Below, piece after piece: positions 6,983-58,756 of a DNA stretch of 64,000 bases (positions are counted from its first letter, which is position 1; each line of letters opens with the position of its first letter). The stretch comes from Ignavibacterium sp. (GTDB taxonomy: Bacteria > Bacteroidota > Ignavibacteria > Ignavibacteriales > Ignavibacteriaceae): positions 124,001 through 188,000 of the forward strand of contig JAVSMP010000001.1 in NCBI GenBank assembly GCA_032027145.1, given 5' to 3'. The position numbers were made by a program, and so were the translations under genes. The notes below the pieces were generated by a model that worked only from the letters and a program-made list of their open reading frames with translations, was not told the DNA's origin and ran no database searches.

Positions 6983-7450
6983 TTAAATCTTCTTAATTAC
7001 TTTAGCAGGTACACCTGCAACTATAGTATTTGGAGGAACATCTTTAGTCACTACAGCTCCAGCTCCTACTATAGCATTTTCACCGATTGTTACTCCACAA
7101 AGTATTGTAGAAGAAGATCCTATTGATGCACCATTCTTTACAAATGTTTCAACTACATTCCAATCAGATTCAGTTTGAATTGATCCATCAGGATTTGCTG
7201 AGCGCGGATATTTATCATTAATAAATGTAACATTATGTCCAACAAAAACACTATCACCTATATGAACGCCTTCACAAATAAAGGTATGAGATGATATTTT
7301 ACAATTTTTACCGACAGATGCATTCTTCTGTATCTCAACGAAAGTACCAATCTTTGAGTTATCATCAATTGAACAGCCGTATAGATTAACAAAATCAAAT
7401 ATCTTTACATCTTTACCAAGTTTTACATTATTAAGATTTTTCTTTTCCAA
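6983..7450 (-). CDS. Left-handed beta-helix sugar N-acetyltransferase (WlbB/WbpD-like)
   Basis: 155 residues made almost entirely of hexapeptide repeats ([LIV]-G-x4), for example IGDSVFVGHNVTFIND and IGENAIVGAGAVVTKDVPPNTIVAGVPAKVI, the standard acyltransferase end. This size and architecture match the enzymes that acetylate the 3-amino group of UDP-2-acetamido-3-amino-2,3-dideoxy sugars with acetyl-CoA. It uses a TTG start at 7450. It lies 27 bp after the Gfo/Idh/MocA oxidoreductase, a partner in the known WlbA-WlbC-WlbB pathway. The exact sugar cannot be read from sequence. Confidence 0.8.
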   Translation of the reverse strand: MEKKNLNNVKLGKDVKIFDFVNLYGCSIDDNSKIGTFVEIQKNASVGKNCKISSHTFICEGVHIGDSVFVGHNVTFINDKYPRSANPDGSIQTESDWNVVETFVKNGASIGSSSTILCGVTIGENAIVGAGAVVTKDVPPNTIVAGVPAKVIKKI

Positions 7451-7477
7451 ATATTCTGCCTGATATGAATTTGATAA

Positions 7478-8491
7478 TTAAAAGTGAACAAGCTCTTCAA
7501 TTTCAACTATTCTTCCCATTCCCTTTAATGATTTATCGCTTGCTTCTAACAGTTTAACTACTTCCAAACCATCATATCCGTTTGTCAAGGGCTGTCTGTT
7601 TTCTTTTATAGCGTCAAGACATTCCCGTGCACCAAGTGCAAGAGCTTCTGTCTGATTTACTTTAGGTGAAAACATATCACCGATTCTATATTGAACCAGT
7701 GCTTCATGAATTCCCTCGGTTGTTTTTATTTCAATTCCACTATCATAAACTTTTATCTTTTCAAAATTTTCCATGTCATCATAAACAAGCATCTTCTTTG
7801 ATCCTCCAACAATCATCCTTCTTATCTTTACTGGTGAAAGCCAATTAACATGAAAATGTGCAAAACAATTATCTTCAAAATATATGCTTATATGTGCGAT
7901 GTTCTCTTTACCATTAAAGTTGGCAATCCCATTTGCTGATATAGCTTTTGCCTTAAATCCAAGAATGTAATGCATAATAGAAAGATCATGTGGTGCCAGA
8001 TCCCAAATAACATTAACATCTCTTTGGAATAAGCCGAGATTAATTCTCTCAGAATCAAAATACAGAATGTTTCCAAGCTCACCATTATCAACAAGTTCCT
8101 TCATCTTAATAACCGCGCCATTATAGATGAATGTGTGATCAACAAAAATATTAAGATTCTTGGATTCAGCTATTTCTATCAATTCCTCAGCTTCAGCGAC
8201 ATTAGCAGTAAAAGGTTTCTCTATCCAGATATGTTTACCGTTCAACAGTGCTTTTTTAGCAATCTGATAGTGAGTTGCCACCGGTGTTGCAATAACAATA
8301 AGATCACTATTACCTGTCAAAGTTTTTTCGCAATCATTAGATAGAACAACACTCGGAAATTTTTGTTTCATCACCTTCAATCTGTCTTCTCTGGTATCGC
8401 AGGCTATTAACTGTTCAACATCGGGTTGAGCAAGAAAATTTCTTAGTAAGTTTGGGCCCCAATATCCTAATCCAACTACGGCTACTTTCAT
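7478..8491 (-). CDS. Gfo/Idh/MocA-family sugar-nucleotide oxidoreductase (WlbA/WbpB-like)
   Basis: 337 residues. The N-terminal Rossmann fold has the dinucleotide motif GLGYWGPN at 7-14 and the family's EKP at 91-93 (HIWIEKPF). The C-terminal half is the family's alpha/beta domain. In WlbA/WbpB-type pathways this enzyme oxidises C3 of UDP-GlcNAc-uronate to give the keto sugar used by a DegT aminotransferase. Both the aminotransferase (10205-11338) and the acetyltransferase (6983-7450) are in the same operon. A UDP-GlcNAc 6-dehydrogenase for the uronic acid was not found in the window, so a non-uronic 3-amino sugar is also possible. Confidence 0.82.
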   Translation of the reverse strand: MKVAVVGLGYWGPNLLRNFLAQPDVEQLIACDTREDRLKVMKQKFPSVVLSNDCEKTLTGNSDLIVIATPVATHYQIAKKALLNGKHIWIEKPFTANVAEAEELIEIAESKNLNIFVDHTFIYNGAVIKMKELVDNGELGNILYFDSERINLGLFQRDVNVIWDLAPHDLSIMHYILGFKAKAISANGIANFNGKENIAHISIYFEDNCFAHFHVNWLSPVKIRRMIVGGSKKMLVYDDMENFEKIKVYDSGIEIKTTEGIHEALVQYRIGDMFSPKVNQTEALALGARECLDAIKENRQPLTNGYDGLEVVKLLEASDKSLKGMGRIVEIEELVHF

Positions 8492-8524
8492 TTTAAATCC
8501 TTGTTCAAAGTATTTGAAAAATAA

Positions 8525-10018
8525 TTATTTCGCTCCCTTGGAAAAGAGCATAACGGGAACCGTTTGAAACATTAACTGAATATCTAACCATGGAGACATA
8601 TTGTTAACATAATATAAGTCTAACACTATACTCTCCTGAAAAGTAACTATACTTCTTCCCCAAACCTGCCAAACCCCTGTGCAGCCGGGAATAACACTGA
8701 CTCTTCTTTTTTGCCATTCATCGTAATTCTCATACTCATAAGTTAAGCAAGGTCTTGGTCCAACAAGGCTCATATCACCCTTTATAACATTGAATAATTG
8801 GGGTAATTCATCAAGTGAAGTCTTTCTGATAATTTTCCCAATCCAAGTTACACGACTTTCATTAATTATTTTAGTATCTGTTCCGGTTTTATCAGCTCCA
8901 TTCTTCATAAATTCAATCATCTTCTTTTTTCGTTCTTCATCTTCACCATTAATTTGTTTCATTGATCTGAATTTATAGAAATCAAATTCTTTACCATCTT
9001 TACCAATTCTTTTTTGCTTAAATAAGATAGGACCTGGCGAAGATAATTTTACCATTGCTGTAATAAATCCCATTATCGGAGAAAGAAATAAAATAGCAAA
9101 AAAGGCAATTACAACATCAAAGAATCTTTTTAGTCCGAGTGTAAAGTTATCATTATATTGAGGAGAAACATCAATAACCGGAATATCTGAGTACTTTTCT
9201 ATTTTCAATTTTTGATTTACAACATCTAACAGACTTGATGTCATTCTTATTGGAACATTAAATGACTTACAATAATCAACAACATCAAAAAACTTTTCAT
9301 ACGATTGACTATCACTTGAAATTATTAATTCATCAACTTTGTTATTATCAAGGATCTCCTTAAGATTTTCCAGGTTGCCTAATACTTTTTTACCAGCAAC
9401 AACAAAATCACCAATCTGTCTTTCATCATCAACAAAACCAAGAATATTTAAACCAAGCGGATTTTCGTAAATTAATTTTGTTGCTAAAAGTTTTCCTGGT
9501 TTACCATTACCAACTATAATAACATTTCTTTTAAAACTGCTTTGACTTAGTTCAATAAATAACCACTTTAGTAATTCAACACGAACAATAAACAGTAAAC
9601 CGATTGATATCAGAAAGAAAAACACAAAAAGAAGTCTTGAGTCTATTATAGTTCTTGAATCGAGTAAAAAAGATAATAGAACAATCTTTAATGAACTATA
9701 ATAAATTGCCTTTAGTATTTGAGTAAAGTGTGCTGTTCGATTTAGAATAATATCAAGGCGATATAATCCGTTATACTGAAATATCAATATAATGACCAGT
9801 GTAATTACTAATACTAAAGAAAGCACCCATGGAATAGAACCATAAAACTCAAGGAAGTTTAATGATGTATTAATTCGAAGAGCGAAAATTGAAATTAAAA
9901 ATGAGAAGATCAGGATAAAAAAATCGGCTATTCCAAAAAAGTATTTATATCTGTAATTTTTTTTCATAAGGTTAATAGAAATAGTTAAGCTTTCTTGGAT
10001 ATTCAGGAATTGTGCCAC
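8525..10018 (-). CDS. Undecaprenyl-phosphate sugar phosphotransferase, initiating enzyme
   Basis: 497 residues from a GTG at 10018. The ATG at 9967 (MKKNYRYKYFFGIADF, 480 residues) looks like the better start, as it directly precedes the first membrane helix. There are several N-terminal helices (about residues 25-160), a CoA-binding-like middle domain (VGNGKPGKLLATKL region), then a fifth helix. The C-terminal bacterial sugar transferase domain contains KRFFDVVIAFFAILF, GPILFKQKRIGKDGK, FYKFRSM and the late SLDELPQLFNVIKGDMSLVG. It should load the first sugar phosphate on undecaprenyl phosphate in the inner membrane. This is the committed step for the polymer made by the surrounding genes. 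Confidence 0.92.
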   Translation of the reverse strand: MAQFLNIQESLTISINLMKKNYRYKYFFGIADFFILIFSFLISIFALRINTSLNFLEFYGSIPWVLSLVLVITLVIILIFQYNGLYRLDIILNRTAHFTQILKAIYYSSLKIVLLSFLLDSRTIIDSRLLFVFFFLISIGLLFIVRVELLKWLFIELSQSSFKRNVIIVGNGKPGKLLATKLIYENPLGLNILGFVDDERQIGDFVVAGKKVLGNLENLKEILDNNKVDELIISSDSQSYEKFFDVVDYCKSFNVPIRMTSSLLDVVNQKLKIEKYSDIPVIDVSPQYNDNFTLGLKRFFDVVIAFFAILFLSPIMGFITAMVKLSSPGPILFKQKRIGKDGKEFDFYKFRSMKQINGEDEERKKKMIEFMKNGADKTGTDTKIINESRVTWIGKIIRKTSLDELPQLFNVIKGDMSLVGPRPCLTYEYENYDEWQKRRVSVIPGCTGVWQVWGRSIVTFQESIVLDLYYVNNMSPWLDIQLMFQTVPVMLFSKGAK

Positions 10019-10152
10019 CCATTAATTCTTTATTTTCTAATCATTTTCTAAGTTTTATATAAGAACTAATTTCAAAATGAGATTTCAAATACTTCTTATC
10101 AAGAGATTTGAGACAACAATTAAGTTTGATTTAGGAAAACTATAATAAAAAA

Positions 10153-10175
10153 AGCCCGATTTGAATCATCGGGCT
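10153..10175 (-). terminator. Rho-independent terminator after the aminotransferase gene
   Basis: The minus strand reads an 8-bp stem AGCCCGAT/ATCGGGCT around a 7-nt loop followed by seven T residues. It lies 30 bp after the stop of the DegT-family gene (10205). It would split the left arm into two transcripts or attenuate read-through into the phosphotransferase. Confidence 0.8.
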
Positions 10176-10204
10176 GATAGTGATCCTTAATTAGTTTGCA
10201 ATAT

Positions 10205-11338
10205 CTACTGATTAAAAAACTCTTTAATTTTACCAATTACATAGTTGATCTGCTCATCAGTCAACTCAGGAAACATTGGTAATGATAATCCTGCCTCTGC
10301 AATCCTTTCTGAGTTAGGGAAATCCCCTTTTTTATATCCAAGACTTTTAAAACACTCTTGCATATGTAGTGGAATCGGATAATGTAAACCGACATTAACA
10401 CCATTTTGTGTTAAAAAATCTTTCAGTTTATCCCTTAATTGATTACTGGTATCAAGACTTCCGTCATTTAACTGAATTACATATAAATGATAAACATGTT
10501 TTGCATACGACATTTCTTTCGGAGTAATCACCTTTGTTAAATTTTTTAGACCTTCATTATATTTTGCTGCAACAGATCTTCTGGCATCAGTCCATTTACT
10601 AAGATATTTTAGCTTTACTTCAAGTACAGCTCCTTGTATTCCTTCCATCCTGTAATTGTGTCCAAGAATATCATGATAATACTTTTGAGATTGTCCATGC
10701 TCGCGTAGTTTCTTGATTTTGTTATAAAGTGCTTCATCATTTGTTGTTACAGCTCCGCCTTCACCGTATGCACCAAGATTTTTTCCCGGATAATAACTAA
10801 ACGAAGCAGCATCAGTTAATCCACCTATTAATTTTCCTTTATATTCTGCAAGATGAGCCTGGGCAGCATCTTCAACCAGAATAAGATTGTGTTTTTTTGC
10901 AATATCAATTAATGGATCAAGATCAGCGCTTTGTCCGTAAAGATGAACTGCCACAATAGCCCTTGTCTTCTTTGTTATAGCTTTTTCAACTTTAGATATA
11001 TCTATATTATATGATTCGGGATGACAATCGACAAAAACTGGTGTAGCACCGCATAAAGTTGCACCCCAGGCAGTTGCAATAAATGTATTAGCCGGTACAA
11101 TTACTTCATCTCCAGGACTAATACCTAAGCCCCATAAAACAAGGTGATTAGCATCTGTACCCGAGCTTGTACCAAGGCAATATTTAACTTGATGAGCAGC
11201 AGAAAAATCTCTTTCAAAATTCTGGACTGATGCACCAAGTATATAAGCAGTGTTATCAAGAACATGCTGAATAGCTGCATTGACTTCTGACTTAATTGAA
11301 TTATAATTTGCTTTCAAATCTAAAAAAGGAACATTCAT
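10205..11338 (-). CDS. DegT/DnrJ/EryC1-family sugar aminotransferase (WlbC/WbpE-like)
   Basis: 377 residues, full family length. It shows the PLP-binding Lys186 in SFSYYPGKNLGAYGEGGA, Asp157 and Gln160 in ILVEDAAQAH, and Ser179. It begins MNVPFLDLKANYNSIKSEV, as is typical of WlbC/WbpE and FdtB-type enzymes. It transfers an amino group from glutamate to a 3-keto nucleotide sugar. With the oxidoreductase and acetyltransferase downstream it forms a complete oxidise-aminate-acetylate set. The terminator just after it suggests separate regulation from those genes. Confidence 0.88.
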   Translation of the reverse strand: MNVPFLDLKANYNSIKSEVNAAIQHVLDNTAYILGASVQNFERDFSAAHQVKYCLGTSSGTDANHLVLWGLGISPGDEVIVPANTFIATAWGATLCGATPVFVDCHPESYNIDISKVEKAITKKTRAIVAVHLYGQSADLDPLIDIAKKHNLILVEDAAQAHLAEYKGKLIGGLTDAASFSYYPGKNLGAYGEGGAVTTNDEALYNKIKKLREHGQSQKYYHDILGHNYRMEGIQGAVLEVKLKYLSKWTDARRSVAAKYNEGLKNLTKVITPKEMSYAKHVYHLYVIQLNDGSLDTSNQLRDKLKDFLTQNGVNVGLHYPIPLHMQECFKSLGYKKGDFPNSERIAEAGLSLPMFPELTDEQINYVIGKIKEFFNQ

Positions 11339-18808: not shown

Positions 18809-19318
18809 ATGATAAAAAGCATTTTTAGCAGGCTATTATTGAGCCTTTCTTTTATTGCTCCCTTTGGATATAGTTTCAGACCATGGTTGCATAAATTGAG
18901 AGGGGTGAAAATAGGTAAAAACGTTTGGATAGCTAAATCAGTATACTTGGATGAATTACATCCAGATGATATAGAAATTGGTGATAATTCAATAATTAAC
19001 TTTAGAACTACTATCTATACACATTCATATTTTGGACCAAGACAAAAAAAAAGCACAGGCAAAGTAATCATTGGTAAAGATGTATATGTTGGGCCGCATT
19101 GCCTGATATTACCAGGCGTAAAGATAGGCGATTGTTCAGTTATTAAAGGCGGAACAGTAGTAACACGAAATGTACCTCCAAATACATTTTGGGGTATGCC
19201 AAACCCCGGACCTTTGGCAAGAGTTACCGTACCATTAACACCTGGTCACACACAAGAAGAATTCGTAAAAGGACTTAGACCTATTAAGAAAAAAAAGATT
19301 GTTGTTGAAGAAGAATAA
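18809..19318 (+). CDS. Hexapeptide-repeat acyltransferase (WcaF/maltose acetyltransferase type)
   Basis: 169 residues. A short hydrophobic N-terminus is followed by left-handed beta-helix repeats (IGKNVWIAKSVYLDE, IGKDVYVGPHCLILPGVKIGDCSVIKGG and VTRNVPPNTFWGMPNPGPLA), with the catalytic-type His in the THSYFG stretch. Such enzymes O-acetylate sugars from acetyl-CoA. It is encoded 50 bp before an acyl carrier protein, so an ACP-bound acyl donor is conceivable, but that is inference. The Lys/Glu-rich tail is unusual. Confidence 0.78.
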   Translation: MIKSIFSRLLLSLSFIAPFGYSFRPWLHKLRGVKIGKNVWIAKSVYLDELHPDDIEIGDNSIINFRTTIYTHSYFGPRQKKSTGKVIIGKDVYVGPHCLILPGVKIGDCSVIKGGTVVTRNVPPNTFWGMPNPGPLARVTVPLTPGHTQEEFVKGLRPIKKKKIVVEEE

Positions 19319-19368
19319 AATCATTTTGAAAAGATTTATTAAACAAATAAAAAAGGAAGACAGAAAAC

Positions 19369-19623
19369 ATGAGCCGAATAAACGCAGTTAGAGAATTTAT
19401 TATAGAAAATTTTTTGTTCGGAGAAGAAGAACAGTTAAAGCCAGATACTGATTTTTTTGACAAAGGCATTATAGATTCTACCGGTGTGATAGAATTAGTT
19501 AGCTTTTTAGAAGAATCATATAATATCTCAGTTGATGATGAGGAACTTATTCCACAAAATCTTTCAAGTTTAAACAACATAGACACCTTCCTTCAGAAAA
19601 AGCTTAATCAAAAGGTGGCATAA
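19369..19623 (+). CDS. Acyl carrier protein dedicated to the exopolysaccharide locus
   Basis: 84 residues. It has the phosphopantetheine attachment Ser37 in DKGIIDSTGVIELV, the modified form of the usual DSL found in specialised carrier proteins. The acidic helix II (FLEESYNISVDDEEL) is typical. The N-terminus is longer than in the fatty-acid ACP. Its stop is 2 bp from the AsnB start, showing tight coupling. It likely presents an acyl or aminoacyl group to a partner enzyme in the locus (acyltransferase, amidotransferase or FemAB proteins). No charging ligase is adjacent. Confidence 0.88.
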   Translation: MSRINAVREFIIENFLFGEEEQLKPDTDFFDKGIIDSTGVIELVSFLEESYNISVDDEELIPQNLSSLNNIDTFLQKKLNQKVA

Positions 19624-19625
19624 AG

Positions 19626-21623
19626 ATGTGCGGGATTGCTGGTATAATGAATCTTGGACATCAAAAACCAATTTCTTCTGATGTGCTAAGAAGCATGGTT
19701 TCAAATCAGCAACACCGTGGACCAGATGAGACTGGTGCATATATAGATGATAATATAGGTTTGGCTCATGCACGATTAAGCATTATTGATCTTAAGGATG
19801 GCACTCAACCCATTTATAATGGAGATAAATCTCTTTGGATAATTTACAACGGGGAGGTTTTTAACTATCCGGAACTAAGACAAAAGTTGATCAATAGTGG
19901 TCATAAATTCTATACTACAAGTGATACAGAAGTAATTTTACATCTATATGAAGAAAATGGAATCAATTGTCTGAATGAATTGAATGGTCAATTTGCTTTT
20001 GCTATCTGGAACTCAAACAATAAAACACTGTTACTTGCTCGTGATCGGGTTGGAATTTTGCCTTTGCATTACACGATTCAAAACAAGCGGTTATATTTTG
20101 CTTCAGAGATCAAGTCAATCTTTGCTAATAAAGATATTGAAAGATCATTTGATCATGAGTCCTTAGACCAGATTTTTACTTTCTGGACTACACTTCCGGG
20201 CAAAACTGTTTTTAGTAGCATTAAAGAACTGCTGCCTGCACATTATATGTTAATTTCACAAAACGAAATAAAAACCGGTAAGTATTGGGATTTAAATTTC
20301 GCTGCTACTCATGAAGCAGTTAATAAAAAAAACGATGAGTTAGTTAATGAGATTTCAGAAATATTAATGGATTCAGTTAGAATCCGTTTACGTGCTGATG
20401 TTCCAGTGGGGACTTATCTCAGTGGAGGTTTAGATTCTTCTGCTTTAACTGAGACTGTTAAAAAAAATTTTAATAATGAACTCAGATCTTTCGGTATTAG
20501 ATTTGAAAATAAAGAATATGACGAGGGAAGATTTCAAAATGAAATGGTAGATTTTCTAAAGGTCAATCACTCTGAAATTATCGCAACAAATGATTCAATA
20601 GGAACTAATTTAGAAAATGTTTTATGGCATACAGAAAAACCACTATTAAGAACCGGTCCAATTCCATTGTATATGTTATCAGGACTCGTTAATCAAAGTA
20701 GTTATAAAGTTGTATTAACAGGTGAAGGTGCTGATGAAATATTCGGCGGATATGACATATTTAAAGAAGCAAAGATCAGAAATTTTTGGTCTAAAGATCC
20801 TGAGTCAAAACTTAGACCGTTACTGCTTGGAAAGTTATATCCATATATATTTAAAGATGATCGGTTAAAACAAACACTTATCGCCTTCTTTAAAAACGGA
20901 ATTGATAATCCTGATGATCCATTCTTTTCACACAACATCAGGTGGAAGAATACTTCAAAAATAAAAAACTTTTTTTCTGAACAGTTAAGAGATTCAACAA
21001 GAGATTACGACAGCTATAATGAATTGACAAAGTTGTTACCATCAGATTTCTTTGACTGGGATGCAGTAACAAAATCACAATTTTTAGAATCAACAATCTT
21101 TCTTAGTAATTATTTGTTATCCTCGCAAGGCGATCGAGTTGCAATGGCTCATTCACTTGAATTGAGAGTTCCATATCTTGATCACAGAGTTATTGAGTTG
21201 CTTGCAAAAGTGAATTCTGAAATTAAAATAAACGGACTGAATGAAAAATACTTGCTAAAGCAAATATTTAAAAACAGGTTACCATCAAATATTTTAAAGC
21301 GATGGAAAAATCCTTACAGGGCTCCTATTCACAAAGCACTTTTGAACAACAATCTTAATCTAGTTAAGGAATGCTGTTCCGAAGATGCTATTAACAAAAC
21401 AGGGATTTTTGATCCGGTTAAAGTTTTAAAACTAATTAGCAAACTTGGAAAGTTAGACAGAGCCGGCGAATTTGATGAAATGGCTTTGGTCGGGATTATT
21501 TCAACACAATTAATTCACAAAAATTTTATAGAAGACTTTCAGGATATTCCTTCTAAATCGGACAGATTCGATCAATTTTTTGATTACAGATCTGCAAACA
21601 AAAGATTAAAAAAAGTTTTATAG
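19626..21623 (+). CDS. Asparagine synthase-type amidotransferase (first copy)
   Basis: 665 residues. The N-terminal class-II glutaminase domain begins with the nucleophile Cys2 (MCGIAG) and contains HRGPDETG and the YNGEV segment. The synthetase domain has the ATP-binding SGGLDSS near 264-270 and GEGADEIFGGY. It transfers glutamine-derived ammonia to an AMP-activated carboxylate. Members in exopolysaccharide and O-antigen loci (for example Bordetella WbmE) are thought to make sugar uronamides rather than asparagine. Coupling to the carrier protein two bases upstream suggests the substrate may be a sugar acid or an ACP-bound acid. Confidence 0.88.
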   Translation: MCGIAGIMNLGHQKPISSDVLRSMVSNQQHRGPDETGAYIDDNIGLAHARLSIIDLKDGTQPIYNGDKSLWIIYNGEVFNYPELRQKLINSGHKFYTTSDTEVILHLYEENGINCLNELNGQFAFAIWNSNNKTLLLARDRVGILPLHYTIQNKRLYFASEIKSIFANKDIERSFDHESLDQIFTFWTTLPGKTVFSSIKELLPAHYMLISQNEIKTGKYWDLNFAATHEAVNKKNDELVNEISEILMDSVRIRLRADVPVGTYLSGGLDSSALTETVKKNFNNELRSFGIRFENKEYDEGRFQNEMVDFLKVNHSEIIATNDSIGTNLENVLWHTEKPLLRTGPIPLYMLSGLVNQSSYKVVLTGEGADEIFGGYDIFKEAKIRNFWSKDPESKLRPLLLGKLYPYIFKDDRLKQTLIAFFKNGIDNPDDPFFSHNIRWKNTSKIKNFFSEQLRDSTRDYDSYNELTKLLPSDFFDWDAVTKSQFLESTIFLSNYLLSSQGDRVAMAHSLELRVPYLDHRVIELLAKVNSEIKINGLNEKYLLKQIFKNRLPSNILKRWKNPYRAPIHKALLNNNLNLVKECCSEDAINKTGIFDPVKVLKLISKLGKLDRAGEFDEMALVGIISTQLIHKNFIEDFQDIPSKSDRFDQFFDYRSANKRLKKVL

Positions 21624-21975
21624 ATAGATTTTTATTTAAGTATGAATGTATTTGTTTATTTCTTCCAAAATTTAATGTTTTGAAAATGAATTTGATTTAC
21701 GCTTGATTGGTAATGCATACCTGATAATATTCTTGTTGTTTTAAATAAGGAACAGTAGCAAATGACAATAATATCAGGATAAATAATTTTTCAGAAAATA
21801 TTATCAACCTGCAGAAGTAAACTTGTGTTATACAAAATCCCTCAAATAATAAAATTCTGGGAAAATCTGTCAGTTAACCAGGCAGAGAAAGACCGGCAAA
21901 GATGGCATTGCCTTCAATGAAAAACTAAATAATTTTATAGTTATAAACTGAAATAAAAAAGTAAGGTAAAAATTT
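21624..21975. other. Intergenic region
   Basis: 352 bp with no supported gene or clear terminator. The long open frame on the opposite strand over the next gene (21870-22262) is a shadow of it. Confidence 0.4.
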
Positions 21976-22932
21976 ATGAATTTCACTAAAGAATCAATCA
22001 ATATTGATCCAGCTAAAGAATTTGAAAAGATAAGTTCAAAACTTAAAGATGATGTAACTAAAAAGCTTAAGAAAAGAGGAGCAGTTGTTGGAATAAGTGG
22101 AGGGATTGATTCTTCTGTTGTTTTGGCAATATGCGCAAAGACTTTTGGACCAGACCGAGTAATTGGTGTAATGATGCCTGAAAACGATTCTAATCCAGAT
22201 AGCCTTGAGTTGGCAAAGAGACTTTCAGCAAAGTTCAATACAAAATATGTTATTGAAAACATGACAGAAGCGTTATCTGGATATGGCTGCTACAAAAGAA
22301 GAGATGAAGCTATCAAAAATGTTTTTCCAGAGTTTAATAGTAACTACAAAGCAAAAATTACCTTGCCAACTAACTTATTGGAGAAGGAATCACTAAATGT
22401 TTTCCAACTAACTATTATTGCACCGGATGGAAAAACAAAATCAGAAAGGCTACCTCTTAAAGAGTACTTACAGATTGTAGCTGCATCAAACTTTAAACAA
22501 AGAAGCAGAATGAGTATGCTATATTATCATGCGGAAGCAAGGAACTATGCTGTTATAGGGACAGGAAATAAGAATGAGCATGAACAGGGTTTTTTTGTAA
22601 AATACGGTGACGGAGGTGCTGATATAAAACCAATCGCTCATTTATTTAAAACTCAAGTATTTCAGCTTGCCGAGTATCTGGAAGTACCGGAAGAAATCAG
22701 AAAAAGAACTCCCACAACAGATACTTATAGTGCAGAGCAAACTCAAGAAGAGTTTTTTTATAGAGTTCCTTTTCATATTCTTGATACAGTCTGGTTTGGA
22801 TGGGAACAAGGGATTCCATCGAAAAATATTGCACAAGCATTAGGGCTGACTGAAGAAAATGTTGATTCGATAATACGCGATACACAGCGGAAAATTAGAA
22901 CGACAGAGTATTTAAGAATGGAACCGCTTTAG
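21976..22932 (+). CDS. NAD synthase-like ammonia-dependent amidating ligase (NadE family)
   Basis: 318 residues. The PP-loop SGGIDSS sits near 40-47. NadE hallmarks GTGNKNEHEQGFFVKYGDGGADIKP are present (residues about 195-220). Where housekeeping NadE has its conserved C-terminal PSADL/GQ region, this protein has PTTDTYSAEQTQEEFFYRVP and a different tail. NadE adenylates a pyridine carboxylate and converts it to an amide with ammonia. Location between two AsnB-type enzymes and a VOC protein suggests a recruited paralogue amidating another carboxylate. A housekeeping role cannot be excluded. Confidence 0.75.
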   Translation: MNFTKESINIDPAKEFEKISSKLKDDVTKKLKKRGAVVGISGGIDSSVVLAICAKTFGPDRVIGVMMPENDSNPDSLELAKRLSAKFNTKYVIENMTEALSGYGCYKRRDEAIKNVFPEFNSNYKAKITLPTNLLEKESLNVFQLTIIAPDGKTKSERLPLKEYLQIVAASNFKQRSRMSMLYYHAEARNYAVIGTGNKNEHEQGFFVKYGDGGADIKPIAHLFKTQVFQLAEYLEVPEEIRKRTPTTDTYSAEQTQEEFFYRVPFHILDTVWFGWEQGIPSKNIAQALGLTEENVDSIIRDTQRKIRTTEYLRMEPL

Positions 22933-23004
22933 CATTTTATTTTTGCACAATTGAAAAACAAATAATTTAATGCACTTAACTGAACAAAATGATTAGGTTG
23001 ACTT

Positions 23005-23430
23005 ATGGTTATTGATCATATAGGGATAGTCGTAAAATCAATTGAAAAAGGGATAAAATATTGGGAAGAAGTCTTTGATTATAAACAAATGACTGAAGTA
23101 GTTATAAATACAAGACAAAAAGTTAAAGTGGCTTTTTTATGTAAGAAAGATTCTCTTCTCATTAAATTGATTGAACCAATTGATCAAACATCATCCGTTT
23201 ATAATGTTGCAAGGAAAGGTGGTGGATTACACCATTTAGGTTTTAAATGTAAGGATATCAATCAGGAAATTACTCGCTTAAAAAGTTTAGGAATGCGTGT
23301 TATAACAAGTCCTCAACCAGGAGAAGCTTTTGAAAATAATCAAATAGCTTTTTTATTAGGAAATCAGGCAACTAATATTGAACTATTTGATACCGATAAA
23401 AAAGCCAGAAAAATGATTTGCAAAGGATAG
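23005..23430 (+). CDS. VOC/glyoxalase-fold protein (methylmalonyl-CoA epimerase-like)
   Basis: 141 residues with two beta-alpha-beta-beta-beta modules. Candidate metal ligands are His5 (IDHIGIVV), the GLHHLGF histidines near 76-77 and the glutamate of IELFD near 128, as in methylmalonyl-CoA epimerases. It may epimerise or isomerise an acyl or sugar intermediate. It lies between the NadE-like ligase and a polysaccharide deacetylase (15 bp before the latter), so a metabolic role in the polymer pathway is more likely than propionate metabolism. Substrate unknown. Confidence 0.7.
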   Translation: MVIDHIGIVVKSIEKGIKYWEEVFDYKQMTEVVINTRQKVKVAFLCKKDSLLIKLIEPIDQTSSVYNVARKGGGLHHLGFKCKDINQEITRLKSLGMRVITSPQPGEAFENNQIAFLLGNQATNIELFDTDKKARKMICKG

Positions 23431-26494: not shown

Positions 26495-28366
26495 ATGTGT
26501 GGAATTTGTGGTCAATATTATTTTAAAGAGAAGCATCCTGTATCTATTGAGACAATAAAAAGAATGACTGATTCGATGACTCATCGTGGTCCTGATGATG
26601 AGGGATATCATATTTCAGAATCTATTGGACTTGGATTTAGGCGACTCTCTATCATAGATTTGTCCGGCGGGCATCAGCCAATGTCAGATCAGGAAAAATC
26701 TGTTTGGGTAATATTCAATGGTGAAATTTATAATTTCCCAGAGCTGAAAAAAGAACTCGAAGGCTATGGATATATCTTTAAAACAAAATCAGATACTGAG
26801 GTTATAGTTCATGGATATAAACAATGGGGAACCGATGTTCTTAGTCATTTAAATGGAATGTTTGGATTAGCAATTTGGGATGAAAAAAAAGAACGACTAA
26901 TTCTTGCCAGGGACCGGATGGGAATTAAAATTGTATATTATAAAATTGAGGATGGACTTCTCTATTTTGGTTCCGAGATAAGAGCAATTAAAGCAGGATT
27001 AAATTATAAACCAGATATCAATCCAGCCGCAATCAATCTGTTTTTAAGATACCGTTATGCACCTGCACCACATACCATTTACAAGGGTATTCAGAAATTA
27101 GCAGCCGGGACTTGTCTGATTGTAGAAAACGGAACTGCAGACATAAAGCGTTGGTGGAATTGCAAACCGCAACCCTTCGATCCAGTTCCTAAAGAAGCAC
27201 AGGTTAAAGAAGAACTTCTTGAATTATATCGTCAGACAGTAAAAAGTCACTTGATAAGTGATGTTCCACTGGGTATTCTATTAAGCGGTGGTGTCGATTC
27301 CAATATGTTGCTGGCACTAATGAATGAATTCGGTGAAGAATGGAAATCCTTTACTGTTGGGTATGGAGGTTCTTTTTTTGATGATGAATTGGAGTATGCA
27401 AAAGAATCAGCAGATATTTTTAATTCACCACATTATTCAATAAAAATAAACCAGGAGCGCTTTGAAGAAACCCTTTCAAAAGTCATTTCAATCGTAGAAG
27501 AGCCAATTACATCCTCCTCTATAGTACCTATGTATTATTTATGCCAAAAAGCTAGACAGCGAGTAAAAGTAGTCTTGATGGGACAGGGACCAGATGAATT
27601 ATTTGGTGGATATATAAGACATCTCGGTGTTTATTATAGCAAATACTGGCGTTTTTTACCAGCGAGGATAAGAAAACCAATCGGTAAATTTCTTTCAAGA
27701 GTGTCAAAAAATGAGTCGATCAGAAGGGGGATACATTCACTTGAAGTTCCGGAAAAGATGATTCGTTATCAGCAGGTATTTTCTATCATGTCTGAATCTT
27801 TGATAGATGGCTTGTTTCAAGAAAAAGTCTTACCTGAAGGAACCGGTGATTTAATACTTGACTCGTGGAAAGATTTAGAAAGTCTAATTGAAGAAACAGA
27901 TGATCTTAATGGTTTTCAATATTTGGAGATTCGATCTTCGCTTCCAGACGAACTGCTTATGTATGGAGATAAATTGTCAATGGCACATGGACTGGAAGTT
28001 CGAGTTCCGTACCTTGATCAAAAAATTGTGGAATATGTTGAACGATTACCTTCAGACTATCATATAAGATTTGGAAGTCAAAAATGGATTCATAAGCTTG
28101 TTTGTTCAGATTATTTACCAAAAAAAATCATCAAACGAAAAAAGCGCGGATTTGCAGCAAACGTTGTCGATGGATGGTTTAAGGAATCACTTTCAAATGA
28201 ATTTAGCGGTATACTATTGGACAAAAATTCACTTATGTATGAGTTTTTAAAGCCAAAAAAAGTTATATCCTTATATAAGGATCATATTGATGGAAAAGAG
28301 GTTAATTATAAAATTTTATTCAGCCTAATTGTTCTTGAAAAATGGCTGAGAGAGTATCACTCTTAG
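26495..28366 (+). CDS. Asparagine synthase-type amidotransferase (second copy)
   Basis: 623 residues. Class-II glutaminase Cys2 (MCGICG), HRGPDDEG, and the synthetase PP-loop SGGVDS near 263-268 with GQGPDELFGGY are all present, so it should be active. It belongs to the same family as the enzyme at 19626-21623 but is a different subtype, closer to the exosortase-associated and O-antigen amidotransferases. The likely job is a second carboxamide on the polymer or a precursor. It is sandwiched between two paralogous family 2 glycosyltransferases. Confidence 0.88.
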   Translation: MCGICGQYYFKEKHPVSIETIKRMTDSMTHRGPDDEGYHISESIGLGFRRLSIIDLSGGHQPMSDQEKSVWVIFNGEIYNFPELKKELEGYGYIFKTKSDTEVIVHGYKQWGTDVLSHLNGMFGLAIWDEKKERLILARDRMGIKIVYYKIEDGLLYFGSEIRAIKAGLNYKPDINPAAINLFLRYRYAPAPHTIYKGIQKLAAGTCLIVENGTADIKRWWNCKPQPFDPVPKEAQVKEELLELYRQTVKSHLISDVPLGILLSGGVDSNMLLALMNEFGEEWKSFTVGYGGSFFDDELEYAKESADIFNSPHYSIKINQERFEETLSKVISIVEEPITSSSIVPMYYLCQKARQRVKVVLMGQGPDELFGGYIRHLGVYYSKYWRFLPARIRKPIGKFLSRVSKNESIRRGIHSLEVPEKMIRYQQVFSIMSESLIDGLFQEKVLPEGTGDLILDSWKDLESLIEETDDLNGFQYLEIRSSLPDELLMYGDKLSMAHGLEVRVPYLDQKIVEYVERLPSDYHIRFGSQKWIHKLVCSDYLPKKIIKRKKRGFAANVVDGWFKESLSNEFSGILLDKNSLMYEFLKPKKVISLYKDHIDGKEVNYKILFSLIVLEKWLREYHS

Positions 28367-41534: not shown

Positions 41535-43379
41535 ATGAAGCGTAAAATAGCTTTATTAATAATACTTTTTTTTCTAGGCATCGGTAATTCAAATGCACAG
41601 ACCGGACCTGTTGTTTCCTTTACCTACGATGATGGATATCCTTCCTGGTGGGATCTTGGATTTCCATTGTTTCAGCAGTACGGATTTCCCGCAGTTGTTT
41701 ATGTAAATGCAGTACATTGGTGGACTCAAGGAGCAGGATATGATGCTATCAACCACTTATTAGCTTTTCAAAAAGCCGGGTGGGAGATTAGCAGTCATAC
41801 TTGGGATCATAGCGGAGTTACAGATTCCAGTGTAAGTAAAATGAAATATTGGCTGGACTCTCTGGGATTTCCCAATTCAGGATTTGCAGCACCGGGACAC
41901 GCCTGGGATCATGCTAAGATTAATATTGTAAAAAAATATCATCCATATTATTGTGGTCATGGATCGCAAGATGGTGGAAATACTTTTCCTGTTGATCTGT
42001 ACTCTATGAAACGGTTTGGATTGGATAGTGGAGTACCGATACAAGATGTAAGAGATGCTTTGGATGATGCAGTGACGAATAACAAGTGGGTAATATTTTT
42101 AGGACATGTAATTGGAAATGATGGTGGCTGGGAACAACCATCAGCACTCTTAGAAGCAACATTTAATGAGGTAATAGCACGTGGGATCCCGGTAAAGACG
42201 GTAAGAGAAGTAATAGATGACCTGTTTCCTCCTGGTTGTGTAATTGAGTGCTCGAGAGATTCAATGCAGTTTCCCTTACTTACATCTATTGAACAACAAG
42301 TATCGGGCGATACAATGCCGTCTTTAAACACTTCCAACTGGAATGAATACTGGCACAAAACTTCCTGGACAGGACCTCGCTTTATGGGGTCGCCTGTTGT
42401 TTACTGCCACACTTCAAATGATACTTTACCTGTTATGAAGTTTTACCGTGATGTTCCAAATGGTGAATACGAGGTTAGAGCTACAATTATTGAGAGAGAG
42501 CCTGATAAAACATTTAGGGTGTATTATTCATTTGATTCCTCAAATGTGTCGCAATATAGTGTTGAAGTAACTAAAAATAGTGATGTTTCTTTAGGTACTG
42601 TTAATGTTACCAACGGCAAGTTTGCACTATATACTCAAAAAGCCGAAGCGGTTTCAGGTGGTGATGGATATGTAGGATGGGCATTTATAAAGTTGATTAC
42701 TCAGTCGTATGTTAATGTAAAGGTATTTCTTCAGGGCAGTTATGCTGGAGATGGATCAATGACAACAACATTGAATTCAGCAGGAATGTTACCATTTCAT
42801 CACCCATACAATGATACTCTGGAAATCTGGAATTACCCCGGCAGCGAAAGAGTATATAATATGCCTGCAGATATAGTTGATTGGGTTCTTGTAGAACTAA
42901 GAACTGGTACAGCGGCAAATACAACTGTAGGACGACGAGCAGCTTTACTAAAAAGTAACGGCAGTATTGTTGACCTGGATGGATCAAGCCAGCTAAAATT
43001 TAATCGAATAGTTCCAGGAAGTTACTATATAGTTATCAGGCACAGAAATCATCTGCCAATAATGAGCGCTAATCCGGTTAATCTGAGTTTTACAAATAGT
43101 ACACTCTATGATTTTACAACATCGCAATCACAGGCATATGGAAATGAGCCAATGGCTGATCTTGGCGGAAATGTTTTTGGAATGATTGCCGGTGATGCAA
43201 GTGGTGATGGTAGTAATAATGCCACAGATCTAAACACATATTGGATACCACAGAACGGTACTTTATATGATTATCAGACTAAAACAGCAGATTTTAACCT
43301 TGATGCAACAGTAAATGCTACTGATTTGAATGCTTACTGGATCCCAGAAAATGGAAAAGCTACACAGGTACCTGATTGA
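41535..43379 (+). CDS. Secreted NodB-type deacetylase with dockerin-like C-terminal module
   Basis: 614 residues. A signal peptide (1-22, ending NAQT) precedes a NodB domain with FTYDDGYPSWW (near 29-39), ISSHTWDHSG and the late metal and catalytic region FLGHVIGNDGG. A beta-rich middle (about 240-390) follows, then the module shared with 37767-40226 (about 395-614), with IAGDASGDGSNNATDLNTYW and ADFNLDATVNATDLNAYW. It should deacetylate polysaccharide outside the cell, possibly the capsule made by the adjacent locus, and lacks the T9SS C-terminal domain. A strong AAGGAGATGG ribosome-binding site precedes the ATG. Confidence 0.88.
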   Translation: MKRKIALLIILFFLGIGNSNAQTGPVVSFTYDDGYPSWWDLGFPLFQQYGFPAVVYVNAVHWWTQGAGYDAINHLLAFQKAGWEISSHTWDHSGVTDSSVSKMKYWLDSLGFPNSGFAAPGHAWDHAKINIVKKYHPYYCGHGSQDGGNTFPVDLYSMKRFGLDSGVPIQDVRDALDDAVTNNKWVIFLGHVIGNDGGWEQPSALLEATFNEVIARGIPVKTVREVIDDLFPPGCVIECSRDSMQFPLLTSIEQQVSGDTMPSLNTSNWNEYWHKTSWTGPRFMGSPVVYCHTSNDTLPVMKFYRDVPNGEYEVRATIIEREPDKTFRVYYSFDSSNVSQYSVEVTKNSDVSLGTVNVTNGKFALYTQKAEAVSGGDGYVGWAFIKLITQSYVNVKVFLQGSYAGDGSMTTTLNSAGMLPFHHPYNDTLEIWNYPGSERVYNMPADIVDWVLVELRTGTAANTTVGRRAALLKSNGSIVDLDGSSQLKFNRIVPGSYYIVIRHRNHLPIMSANPVNLSFTNSTLYDFTTSQSQAYGNEPMADLGGNVFGMIAGDASGDGSNNATDLNTYWIPQNGTLYDYQTKTADFNLDATVNATDLNAYWIPENGKATQVPD

Positions 43380-54942: not shown

Positions 54943-56733
54943 CTATTTGGCTAAAATCATTTTCTTTGCATCAATATAATCTCCAGCTTTTATTTTGTAT
55001 AAATAAACTCCGGAAGGAATATTAGAGCCATCGAATTCGTATTCATAGAATCCGGGTTTCATCTGTTCTGCCACTAGTGTAAAAATTAATTCTCCTACTG
55101 CATTATATATGCTCAAGTTTACAAATGATTCTTTGGGGATTGCAAACTTTATTCTGGTTCGGGGATTAAATGGATTGGGATAATTCTGACTAAGCGCAAA
55201 TTTTTCTGGCAGATTAAGATCAATCCTTATAATATTTGAATAAGAATAGGCTCCATTTAAATCTATCTGCTTAAGTCTATAATAATTTTCATTACTGGTT
55301 AAAGCTGTATCCCTGTAACTATATGTTTTGGCTTGTGTGGTTGTTCCAGAACCGGGAACAAATGCTATTTTCTCAAATTTCACCATGTCATTACTTCTTT
55401 CAACCTGAAAACCATAGTTATTTGTTTCAGTTGATGTTCTCCAGTTTAAAATCACACTGCCATTATCTGCATAAGCAGTGAATGCTGACAGCTCAACTGG
55501 AATAATTGAAAGATTATAAACTGATATTTCTGAAGAATCTATAGTAACAGCAAAACCAGAATCGTGCATACAGTTTACCCAATTGTTTAAGCACTGGTTA
55601 TACGCTCCGCCTATATTATCAGGATTAGTTCTATCAGGATAATATGCTACTGGAGTTAGCATATATTTTGCAGCATACCAGGATGCAGCAAAAGGATCAG
55701 TAGAACCTAAAAGCATATTTAATTGAATTGCGATATTTCCATAATTACGTTCAGGATTGGTCCAGGCTGCATCAATTATTGTTAATTTGGGAAATGTTAC
55801 TTGCATTACTTTTGCAGGTAATGCATATTCACTAAAAAAATAGTTGAAGTGCATTTGGTCACCACCTCCATAGCGTTCGTTTTGATATGCAACAGTAAGA
55901 ACACCTATCCAGTTCTTTATCGCTAGTGTTGCACCAGTCCAGCCATGTGCTTTTAAGACCGGAAAATCAACTATGCATAAACGTTCGTGATTATAAGTTT
56001 GAGAGTTTTGGTCCCAGATTCCATATTTTAATGAAATATAATGATTACCTGATGGTGATAGGAACTTTGGATATGTAATTTTAGAAGTCGGATCATAAGG
56101 ATATCCATCATTATAATCACCGTCTGAATATTCTGTTACTACATTATTCATTATGTTTTTCCACTCGAATAAATAAACAGGATATCCCTTTGAATAGAAG
56201 GTGTTTATAACATCTAAAATGCATTGCTCTGAATCTTCAGAGTTATTATCGTCTTCTCCTGTTGATGCCCATTGTGTATTATCACCAACCAGAATTTCAC
56301 CGGTAAATCCATCAGGATGATTTAAGATCTGCCAGATTAAACCCTTGATCCGGTCAGTACTTGTTGTATTTCTAAAATCCCATTGAAAGCTTCCTTTAAT
56401 TATTACAATATCGTCTGAACCGACAATACCAAAAGGTCTGGAAGATGTTCTGTGTAAATAAGTACCTTGTGTCTCCATCAATAAAAGTAGTGTGTCAATG
56501 GCGGGATCAACCAGATACTGATCCGGTACAGTGGAGTCACCAGCAGCTAATGAACCAGCTGTTGGGGGAATATCTTCCAAAACAAAAACTTTTGATACTG
56601 GATTATTTACTTCCCAGGCAGGTAATGACTGGGGCAGAATGTTAACAGTTAAGAATAATTCAGCAATGATTAACATCCAGCTTGATAATTTATTATTTTT
56701 TTTCTGATATATATTTTTGCTTAAAGATTTCAT
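54943..56733 (-). CDS. Secreted DUF362-type protein with T9SS C-terminal domain
   Basis: 596 residues with a signal peptide (about 1-40) and an AAGGAAC ribosome-binding site. Residues about 100-375 match the DUF362 pattern: DDIVIIKGSFQWDFRNTTSTD, GEILVGDNT and the VDFPVLKAHGWTGATLAIKNW segment (a conserved lysine-containing signature). A fibronectin-like segment and a T9SS type A domain (LSQNYPNPFNPRTRIKFAIP to MILAK) follow. DUF362 proteins are often cytoplasmic iron-sulfur proteins, so secretion is notable. Function unknown. Confidence 0.8.
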   Translation of the reverse strand: MKSLSKNIYQKKNNKLSSWMLIIAELFLTVNILPQSLPAWEVNNPVSKVFVLEDIPPTAGSLAAGDSTVPDQYLVDPAIDTLLLLMETQGTYLHRTSSRPFGIVGSDDIVIIKGSFQWDFRNTTSTDRIKGLIWQILNHPDGFTGEILVGDNTQWASTGEDDNNSEDSEQCILDVINTFYSKGYPVYLFEWKNIMNNVVTEYSDGDYNDGYPYDPTSKITYPKFLSPSGNHYISLKYGIWDQNSQTYNHERLCIVDFPVLKAHGWTGATLAIKNWIGVLTVAYQNERYGGGDQMHFNYFFSEYALPAKVMQVTFPKLTIIDAAWTNPERNYGNIAIQLNMLLGSTDPFAASWYAAKYMLTPVAYYPDRTNPDNIGGAYNQCLNNWVNCMHDSGFAVTIDSSEISVYNLSIIPVELSAFTAYADNGSVILNWRTSTETNNYGFQVERSNDMVKFEKIAFVPGSGTTTQAKTYSYRDTALTSNENYYRLKQIDLNGAYSYSNIIRIDLNLPEKFALSQNYPNPFNPRTRIKFAIPKESFVNLSIYNAVGELIFTLVAEQMKPGFYEYEFDGSNIPSGVYLYKIKAGDYIDAKKMILAK

Positions 56734-56856: not shown

Positions 56857-58296
56857 CTAATCACCATCAAACATTTCCTTGATTTTATTATAATCGTATT
56901 TACCATTTGTATTTGTTGGTATCTGGTTTGCCGATTTTATAACCAATGATTTAAAATTAAGCTGATACATTTTCATAACCTCTTCTTTTACTTTAATCTC
57001 TGTCAGATGATCATCTGAATGAACAAGAATTTGAAGCAAATCATCTTTTCCTGTACAAGCAGCAGAGATTTGAAAATGATTCTCTATCATTTTCTGAACT
57101 TCATCTAAATTTATTCTTAATCCAAAAATCTTAATAAACCTTTTCATTCTGCCAGTTACATAAAAGAATCCATCTTCATCCTTATAACCAAGATCTCCAG
57201 TAAATAAAACTCCATTCAATTCATCACCTTTGGAAAGATCAGTTAAAGTTTCAGCATAACCAAGCATCACATTATCGCCTTTATAAACTATCTCACCAAC
57301 TTCTTTCGGTCTTGATACTTCAACACCATCATTCATTATATTTAATTTGCCGCCGGGTATAGGAATTCCGATCGAACCAATCTTTTCGCTTAATTTGTCA
57401 TACGGCACGTAGGTTATCCTTGCAGTAGCTTCAGTTTGTCCATACATTACAAAAAACTTTTTATTATTTGCAGTCGCATACTCATTAAACTGTTTAATAA
57501 ACTCTTCGCTTAATTTACCTCCGGCTTGAGTAAAATATTTTAATGTTGGAAGATTAATCTTTTCAAAGCCAATTCTTTTTAGCATTGTATAAGTATAAGG
57601 AACACCTGCAAAAGATGTGCACTTATATTCATTGAACAAATTCCAGAAATCTCTGAAGAACACCGTCTTCTCAGTTAATACAATTGTTGAGCCTTTTAAA
57701 AGATGACTATTAATTATAGATAGCCCGAAAGAATAATTGAATGGAAGAGTTGTAATCGGTCTTTCATTCTCATTGATATTAAGATACTCGGCAATTGAAG
57801 AAGCATTTGATTGAATATTCTTATAAGATAACTTGACAAGCTTTGGTGACCCGGTAGTACCCGATGTAGATAGAAGAACTGCAAGGTCCGGAAATATTTC
57901 AGGAGATTGCTTTTCTTCCCTTTCAAATAAATGTAGTGAGTGATAATCGAAATAATCTGAATATCCTGCCGGTGCTTTAGGACTAACAGAAATAATAAAA
58001 TCCGGTTTATAATTGTTTATTAAACTATTTCTTATTTCCTCATTAAGTTTTTCATCAAGAAGTAAAACCGCACTACCGGATTTAAGCAGGGCTATATATA
58101 AAACAACAGATTCCAGATTGTTTGTTGTAAATAAAAAAGTTAATCCTTTATGGGATAATTTTGTTTTTTCAGATATTGTATCGGATTCAAGATCCAATTC
58201 TTTATATGTTAATGATTTTTTATTTGCAGTATCAATAAGAGCAACGTTATCTGCAAAAAGTTTAATGTTAGACCAGAAATTATTTGATTGATGCAT
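56857..58296 (-). CDS. AMP-forming acyl-CoA/ACP ligase
   Basis: 479 residues, ANL superfamily. The ATP-binding STSGTTGSPKLVKLSY lies near 141-156; YGQTEATAR near 280; FTGDLGYKDEDGFFYVTGR near 365-383 with the hinge Asp; and the late NTNGKYDY catalytic lysine near 468. It activates a carboxylic acid as acyl-AMP and loads it on CoA or a carrier protein. It starts one base after the stop of a small membrane protein. It could charge the exopolysaccharide carrier protein at 19369, but that is speculation. Confidence 0.85.
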   Translation of the reverse strand: MHQSNNFWSNIKLFADNVALIDTANKKSLTYKELDLESDTISEKTKLSHKGLTFLFTTNNLESVVLYIALLKSGSAVLLLDEKLNEEIRNSLINNYKPDFIISVSPKAPAGYSDYFDYHSLHLFEREEKQSPEIFPDLAVLLSTSGTTGSPKLVKLSYKNIQSNASSIAEYLNINENERPITTLPFNYSFGLSIINSHLLKGSTIVLTEKTVFFRDFWNLFNEYKCTSFAGVPYTYTMLKRIGFEKINLPTLKYFTQAGGKLSEEFIKQFNEYATANNKKFFVMYGQTEATARITYVPYDKLSEKIGSIGIPIPGGKLNIMNDGVEVSRPKEVGEIVYKGDNVMLGYAETLTDLSKGDELNGVLFTGDLGYKDEDGFFYVTGRMKRFIKIFGLRINLDEVQKMIENHFQISAACTGKDDLLQILVHSDDHLTEIKVKEEVMKMYQLNFKSLVIKSANQIPTNTNGKYDYNKIKEMFDGD

Positions 58297-58297
58297 T

Positions 58298-58756
58298 TTA
58301 TAAATCCCTGAGTTTAATTGAGTAGTTCAAATAATAAAACATCCATAAACCTGTTCCCGTTATTCTCAGTAACTCTTCTATCAAATCCGATTTAGGCATT
58401 GTAATTATTCTGCCATCAGTTAACAGATCAAGCAGTACAGCACATAAAATAAATCCCATTGATAAAATTAATATGATAAAATTGGTTTTAATTATTTCAA
58501 GTCTGAAATATATAAAATGAAAGATGAAAATGATTGATACAACAATGTAAGTTAGTGTATTTGGAATACTTAATTCTAACCTAAGAAAGTGGTGGAGCTT
58601 TAGGATTATTATGAGTATTAAAATTAATGTTACTGAAAATGAAGAGATTAGGAATTTTAGTTTTGGAGAAGATAAATTACCCTTGAGAAAAATCGTGTAA
58701 AGAATAATCACTAATGTAATCGTAAGAAGAACAGTTTTAATTGATTCAAATTCCAT
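58298..58756 (-). CDS. Small membrane protein upstream of the AMP-ligase
   Basis: 152 residues with about five hydrophobic helices (roughly 5-23, 30-52, 65-85, 91-108 and 130-146). No family is recognised. It is separated from the AMP-ligase start by one base, so the two are translationally coupled and probably function together, for example in lipid or acyl-chain handling in the membrane. Confidence 0.65.
   Translation of the reverse strand: MEFESIKTVLLTITLVIILYTIFLKGNLSSPKLKFLISSFSVTLILILIIILKLHHFLRLELSIPNTLTYIVVSIIFIFHFIYFRLEIIKTNFIILILSMGFILCAVLLDLLTDGRIITMPKSDLIEELLRITGTGLWMFYYLNYSIKLRDL

Follow-up and report, generated by a model that had tools for sequence, protein, structure and literature searches.

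Why should a relative of NAD synthase be encoded beside an acyl carrier protein and an asparagine synthase homologue in what looks like an exopolysaccharide locus? The question is raised by a stretch of 64,000 nucleotides from Ignavibacterium sp., whose genome (assembly GCA_032027145.1) consists of 3.67 Mb in one contig; this stretch (JAVSMP010000001.1, positions 124,001 to 188,000) is called the window below, and its own coordinates are used throughout. We lean towards the answer that the genes belong to a pathway with its own carrier protein, on which an amidated acyl group would be made before being passed to an acceptor.

The genes in question follow one another on the forward strand. A hexapeptide-repeat acyltransferase (AT, 18809..19318; Hexapep 52.6 bits) precedes a dedicated acyl carrier protein (ACP, 19369..19623; PP-binding 25.9 bits, cut-off 20.8), whose attachment motif GIIDSTG (bases 19465-19484) follows a pattern that matches once in the window and whose nearest model, an ornithine-lipid ACP, scores 45.6 bits, below the cut-off of 130. 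As the initial annotation of this DNA had said, the next gene starts after a spacing of only 2 bases; it encodes a glutamine-dependent amidotransferase (AsnB1, 19626..21623; Asn_synthase and GATase_7; TIGR01536 514 bits, cut-off 267) and is followed by NadE2, a second NAD-synthase-like ammonia ligase (21976..22932; NAD_synthase; NF002048 450.7 bits, cut-off 313). That annotation had joined these four genes and a VOC gene into one cassette. Its places and strands for the five genes are correct, and Pfam and NCBIfam scans agree with it on their classes. The AT, ACP, AsnB and NadE-like genes do form a unit, but the VOC gene lies outside the core, and an AMP-forming ligase had been overlooked as the fourth core enzyme.

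The partners of NadE2 recur in other genomes. Fifty-five database loci were scored with profile hidden Markov models built from the set itself; among the 25 that are well flanked (at least 6 kb each side), AsnB is present in 25, the ACP in 23 and an AMP-forming ligase in 23, and 22 hold all three. The 13 well-flanked loci from the window's family and phylum, the window included, have the ACP in 13, AsnB in 12, the ligase in 10 and all three in 9, and all three occur in each of 6 plasmid loci that we picked from 116 records. None of the housekeeping nadE controls has the partner set (0/19 well flanked; 0/20 without the flank rule), so that the co-occurrence search proposed with the initial annotation found a conserved cassette (22/25 against 0/19). 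By clustering, the AMP-forming ligase is the commonest neighbor of NadE2 (52/58 loci). The 42 loci with one of each gene show 10 arrangements (nine orders and one strand variant, with open reading frames [ORFs] ordered by stop), which argues against mere frozen synteny; the order of the NadE relative, AsnB, ligase and carrier protein changes but their company does not, which points to a single product. Of 59 related genomes, 11 bear NadE2 (the window's own among them); 10 of these also have the ACP, and one genome that lacks NadE2 gives a weak ACP match. In the eleventh (G004; genomes and loci carry our G and L numbers), locus L104 lacks the ACP because the contig begins inside AsnB; L106 duplicates the contig of L040 and was not counted.

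Records with the cassette are filed under Bacteroidota, Ignavibacteriota, Zixiibacteriota and Calditrichota, and it is also found on rhizobial plasmids; among named strains, Labilibacter marinus (L075) carries all four genes. Loci from Methanosarcina (L087) and Eubacteriaceae (L073) were kept among the 55 and rejected as additional phyla, since their ligases nest among those of Bacteroidota and mis-binning is possible. Of 14 control genomes, only that of Methanosarcina acetivorans passes the NF002048 cut-off. In locus L043 (6061-7354 and 7718-8680), a second NadE2-ACP pair, in divergent orientation, adjoins the NadE2-ligase pair.

Where, then, is the ligase of the window? In the relative G006 (L108), an intact ligase gene sits between AsnB1 and NadE2. 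The corresponding gap in the window is 352 bp and matches residues 453-494 of the 494-residue G006 ligase: tblastn with this protein finds a remnant of the last 42 codons (21798..21923, forward strand), 57% identical across the last 42 residues (48.9 bits) and with a stop near the old end, compared to 21.2 bits for the best of 200 shuffled gaps. Ligase traces in G002 are weak (24.6 and 23.5 bits versus the same best shuffle). Judged from this comparison, the cassette ligase is gone from its original place in the window except for its 3' end.

A candidate substitute is LigW, an AMP-forming ligase encoded 34 kb downstream on the opposite strand (56857..58296, reverse). In a tree that omits two longer AMP-ligase frames of the host genome (818 and 1628 aa), LigW clusters with the cassette ligases and is separated from five other AMP-ligase genes of the host (97/94). 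Its orthologues stand convergently after NadE2 in G003, G004, G010 and G024. Its neighbor, a DUF362 protein with a C-terminal sorting domain of the type IX secretion system (T9SS) (54943..56733, reverse; DUF362 44.4 bits, Por_Secre_tail 36.8 bits), is homologous to DUF362 proteins encoded directly after the ACP in L039, L041 and L042, as judged on the first 420 residues, full-length matches being mostly to the common T9SS tail. On these three grounds LigW probably took over from the lost ligase. The DUF362 protein is a possible surface partner. A small protein in line with LigW (58298..58756, reverse), hydrophobic by eye, has no Pfam match; a counterpart in the same position is found in G002, G005 and G024. 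One genome, G035, carries both kinds of ligase.

Of 74 cassette-type ligase sequences, all but three (L155, L158 and L159) share an arginine-containing motif, [YF]GxTE[AC]x(1-2)R (71 sequences); the set includes duplicates (the window as L094; L108 as L012) and the G008 and G022 copies. The motif is missing at the equivalent place in three other ligases of the host genome. The best models for three cassette ligases that were scanned are TIGR03098 (two) and PRK06187 (one), all below cut-off. An upstream AMP-ligase (G000:C1:120447), which had the top score to the LigC query, was rejected because the tree places it outside the group of cassette ligases, although long branches make its exact position unsure. 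It adjoins genes resembling, by eye, KAS III, SDR and hydrolase genes. Relatives of LigW in L149 (G008) and L150 (G022) are accompanied by more AMP-ligase genes and, by eye, SDR-like genes, with KAS III in L149, as if they took part in another carrier-linked acyl pathway.

The loss of the original ligase has not released the other genes from constraint. For ACP, AsnB1, NadE2 and AT, the ratio of nonsynonymous to synonymous substitution rates (dN/dS) against G002, G005 and G006 is 0.03-0.09 (0.03-0.06 for AT alone), values that are rough because dS is near saturation (0.9-2.6); against G002, dN/dS is 0.14 for LigW and 0.21 for VOC. These estimates indicate that the remaining cassette genes are under purifying selection.

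NadE2 is an accessory rather than a housekeeping gene. The reading of the initial annotation would have fallen, by its own account, if NadE2 were the only NAD synthase of the organism. A second NAD_synthase frame is present elsewhere in the host genome, however: 548 aa long, at 2.62 Mb (G000:C1:2621662), it matches PF02540 (NAD_synthase) with 256 bits and is presumably the normal NAD synthase. Only 11 of the 59 related genomes pass the NF002048 cut-off, as do 11 of 296 genomes drawn across the phylum (own genome included in both). When 75 subfamily rows (duplicates included) are aligned with 20 housekeeping NadE sequences, the PP-loop SGGxDS is kept, and columns 102, 106, 108-109, 125, 127-128, 143, 152 and 160 are conserved in the family and gapped in 20/20 housekeeping sequences; G102, Y106, R108, R109, K125 and K127 are each conserved in 93-100% of the rows. 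Segment 244-261 is altered as well, with TPTTDTYxAExTQEEFF at 245-261 conserved in 93-100% of the rows. The description of this protein as an altered NadE was thus correct: it is a member of NF002048 with an added segment within 102-166 and a changed segment at 244-261. Its AlphaFold2 (AF2) model (predicted local distance difference test [pLDDT] 86) has the NadE fold (2e18, Z 28.4, 244 residues, 2.8 A).

AsnB1 satisfies TIGR01536 (glutamine-hydrolysing asparagine synthase) by cut-off, N-terminal Cys and PP-loop. Across the AsnB set of 58 members, Cys2 is found in 56 (two gaps), Arg50 in 57, and Asn75, Glu77, Asp100 and the tested SGGxDS positions in 58/58; the residues predicted for glutaminase and synthetase activity are intact in AsnB1. 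The best fold match of the AF2 model (pLDDT 89.5) is TsnB9 (7ylz, Z 37.8), followed by Escherichia coli AsnB (1ct9, Z 35.6), which are also the best sequence matches; aligned by fold, they are 28 and 30% identical to AsnB1. In the phmmer alignment, AsnB1 lacks an Arg facing the one in the TTIRAST segment of E. coli AsnB, a residue with a role in aspartate binding, a difference that is not decisive for the substrate.

The main independent pointer to an amide cargo is a hint from PrmC-like methyltransferases, members of a family named for methylating the side-chain amide of glutamine. They lie within 10 kb of NadE2 in 8/55 database loci and 2/6 plasmid loci, and near 0/20 of the housekeeping nadE controls. 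All 8 of these genomes hold another PrmC elsewhere with a higher score (231-261 bits versus 192-217 for the cassette copy), so the cassette gene is a paralogue. The NPPY motif was found in both PrmC-like proteins inspected (L069 and L135).

Carrier-protein-linked amide synthesis is the most economical reading of this gene set. An AMP-forming ligase, formerly between AsnB and NadE and here apparently LigW, would activate a small carboxylic acid and load it onto the ACP. AsnB1, taking its ammonia from glutamine, and the ammonia-dependent NadE2 would convert a carboxyl group to a primary amide via acyl-adenylates. A terminal acyltransferase, here the hexapeptide AT and elsewhere an MBOAT or a weakly GNAT-like protein, would then hand the group to an acceptor, which in this locus is probably the exopolysaccharide or its amino-sugar precursor; AT is a candidate for taking the acyl group off the ACP by virtue of its gene position. 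We infer the substrate, the order of steps, the enzyme that acts on the carrier-bound acid and the acceptor. The initial annotation had offered synthesis of an amidated acid on a carrier protein, or of uronamides. The first proposal is strengthened, because the AMP-ligase completes the conserved unit and PrmC-like paralogues stand beside 8 of 55 cassettes; the uronamide alternative gained no direct support. A more far-reaching version, which we offer tentatively and regard as somewhat doubtful, is that NadE2 has been neofunctionalised to amidate, together with AsnB, a carrier-bound or phosphopantetheine-linked acid, in an unrecognised phylum-crossing pathway, with ligase and ACP as further members and the PrmC-like N-methyltransferase as an optional one, that decorates polymers of the cell surface with (N-methyl)amide acyl groups.

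The terminal acyltransferases vary among copies of the cassette. A hexapeptide AT stands immediately 5' of the ACP in 7 of 16 family and phylum loci, the window among them; two of the seven score no more than 53-55 bits. An MBOAT lies within 10 kb of NadE2 in 10/55 database loci, and a gene that we call DltD-like in 7/55. Proteins of about 360 residues adjoin the plasmid copies L037, L136, L137 and L138; of five compared, including one 10 kb off in L135, four are homologous and that of L136 is not, and the two that were scanned have a GNAT match below the Pfam cut-off. The VOC gene (23005..23430, forward; methylmalonyl-epimerase-like, Glyoxalase_4; TIGR03081 61 bits, cut-off 115) was rejected as a cassette member, being within 10 kb of NadE2 in only 1/55 database loci and part of the flanking polysaccharide block. 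In the relatives L102, L107 and L108 it lies 3-5 kb away and travels with a deacetylase, GT4, GT2 and AsnB2, a second AsnB homologue (in the window at 26495-28366; nearest model TIGR03108, 509 bits, cut-off 816.9). A Wzc-like gene is found within 10 kb in 13/55 database loci, 6/16 family and phylum loci and no control, and the Azospirillum and Shinella copies are in or beside exopolysaccharide genes.

Literature searches found no paper on the conserved ACP-AsnB-ligase-NadE2 four-gene set. The set closely resembles an operon of Sinorhizobium meliloti pSymB (L134, L135), where AsnB, ACP, AMP-ligase and NadE2 are likewise together, in the order AsnB-ACP-ligase-NadE (asnB of strain 1021 is an open frame at L134:11166-13103); from the location on pSymB, the adjacency and the abstract of a 2009 paper, we take L134 to be SMb20650/51. 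Compared to this type of operon, the window has three of the four genes adjacent, a ligase remnant in place with the ligase displaced to a relative 34 kb off, and a hexapeptide acyltransferase added. According to excerpts of the respective papers, the S. meliloti genes for the ligase SMb20650 and the ACP SMb20651 are cotranscribed, and expression of the ligase in E. coli yielded acylated SMb20651 (PMC7232532); the function of this ACP was said in 2017 to need further investigation (PMC5686131). Excerpts of two other papers merely cite the 2009 SMb20651 paper or its methods (PMC9386255, PMC12794305).

Other known systems are similar in part. The glutarimide starter sets SmdFGH, ChxBCD, LtmHCD and MgsHCD, each an AT-ACP-AsnB homologue trio, have been proposed to convert a malonyl to a malonamyl thioester on the ACP (PMC7756379, in excerpt), and in the window, too, a discrete ACP stands between an acyltransferase and an AsnB homologue. 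In those sets, however, the proposed role of the AT is malonylation of the ACP, with a polyketide synthase coming next, whereas the AT of the window matches hexapeptide models only; the excerpted text names no NadE-like enzyme or ligase, and the window has NadE2. With the exosortase-A (XrtA/PEP-CTERM) locus the window shares best models, TIGR03098 for LigW and TIGR03108 for AsnB2, all below cut-off (LigW 181 of 592; AsnB1 442 and AsnB2 509 of 816.9). The initial annotation saw no exosortase, and this holds genome-wide by PF09721 (0 matches; PEP-CTERM substrates were not searched for). The DltABCD system is similar in having a ligase and a carrier, and some other cassette copies have a DltB-like MBOAT (153 bits, cut-off 375) and a DltD-like gene; the window itself scores 112 against a cut-off of 560 for DltA and 27.9 against 68 for DltC. 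AsnB and NadE2 are not known to have a counterpart in DltABCD.

Several observations weigh against the amide pathway that we favor. No PrmC-like gene was found anywhere in the window, nor, in the 16 family and phylum loci counted, at a distance of up to 10 kb from NadE2. LigW was assigned to the cassette despite its distance of 34 kb and the long stem of its clade in the tree, and this clade is present without NadE2 in G008 and G022. With contig ends ignored, 16 of the 55 database loci lack a detected ACP, 11 AsnB and 7 the ligase; incomplete loci are often on short contigs, yet L049, L076 and L091 are well flanked. The controls come from the window's family and order only, and the profiles were derived from the loci that they scored. 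The operons of S. meliloti, Rhizobium ACO-34A and Mesorhizobium ciceri stand outside a polysaccharide cluster in the 12-15 kb viewed; polymer decoration, the purpose suggested in the initial annotation, is probable here, but as the exclusive role of the set it is unsupported because of these three rhizobial plasmids. Finally, NadE2 apparently keeps, by alignment, most of the residues annotated as binding deamido-NAD in known NadE, so that an unusual NAD synthase stays among the readings. On this view NadE2 would simply be another NAD synthase that depends on ammonia, AsnB1 would make asparagine, and their link to the ACP and ligase would be metabolic and not that of one pathway. The NCBIfam name of the subfamily (NAD(+) synthase; PRK00876, NF002048), the retained PP-loop and fold, and the score of AsnB1 above the TIGR01536 cut-off are consistent with this. 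We consider it unlikely, given the other NadE, the sparse distribution of NadE2 among related genomes and across the phylum, its tie to ACP, AsnB and ligase, and the conservation of its added segment.

Alternatively, the target of AsnB1 and NadE2 may be a uronic acid, amidated in its nucleotide-linked form, and the ACP, ligase and AT may serve a separate acylation of an amino sugar. The natural substrate of NadE is a nucleoside-diphosphate-linked acid, and NadE2 has retained the NadE fold. Two nucleotide-sugar dehydrogenases score over cut-off in the host genome. In addition, a divergent block of the window (6983-11338, reverse) encodes UDP-N-acetylglucosamine (UDP-GlcNAc) 3-dehydrogenase-like, aminotransferase and hexapeptide acetyltransferase proteins, all three below equivalog cut-offs, and a polyprenyl glycosylphosphotransferase; on the pathway that we favor, these genes could be the source of the amino-sugar acceptor. 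Both dehydrogenases are far from the window, however, and uronamide synthesis leaves unexplained why NadE2 and AsnB1 are tied to an ACP and a ligase even outside sugar clusters, which makes it improbable. Least likely of all is a fatty-acyl-ACP system in which the ligase loads fatty acids and AsnB and NadE2 form fatty amides or a lipid: the ligase does belong to the acyl-CoA ligase superfamily, the nearest ACP model is that for ornithine lipids, and smb20650 is listed with fatty-acid activation genes down-regulated under predation (PMC10315480, in excerpt), but SMb20650 could not take over from FadD when cells were grown on oleate (PMC7232532, in excerpt), and the arginine motif of cassette-type ligases is missing in the other host ligases compared.

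Some features of the window stand apart from the cassette. Two adjoining long ORFs (48780-51563 and 52321-54828) are by eye near-identical for most of their length with different C-terminal parts, and look like a recent tandem duplication. Two others (37767-40226 and 41535-43379) have in common a repeat-like C-terminal stretch, DxxxDGSNNxxDLNxYW, dockerin-like by eye. An Rfam scan of the window at gathering scores gave 0 matches.

The cassette is a real, conserved carrier-protein gene set. We infer its function, with the making of an amide as the most likely purpose; the PrmC-like paralogues provide a chemical clue to amide nitrogen. Public annotation names the products of these genes "NAD(+) synthase" and "asparagine synthase", and may thereby misstate the metabolism of the bacteria that carry them.

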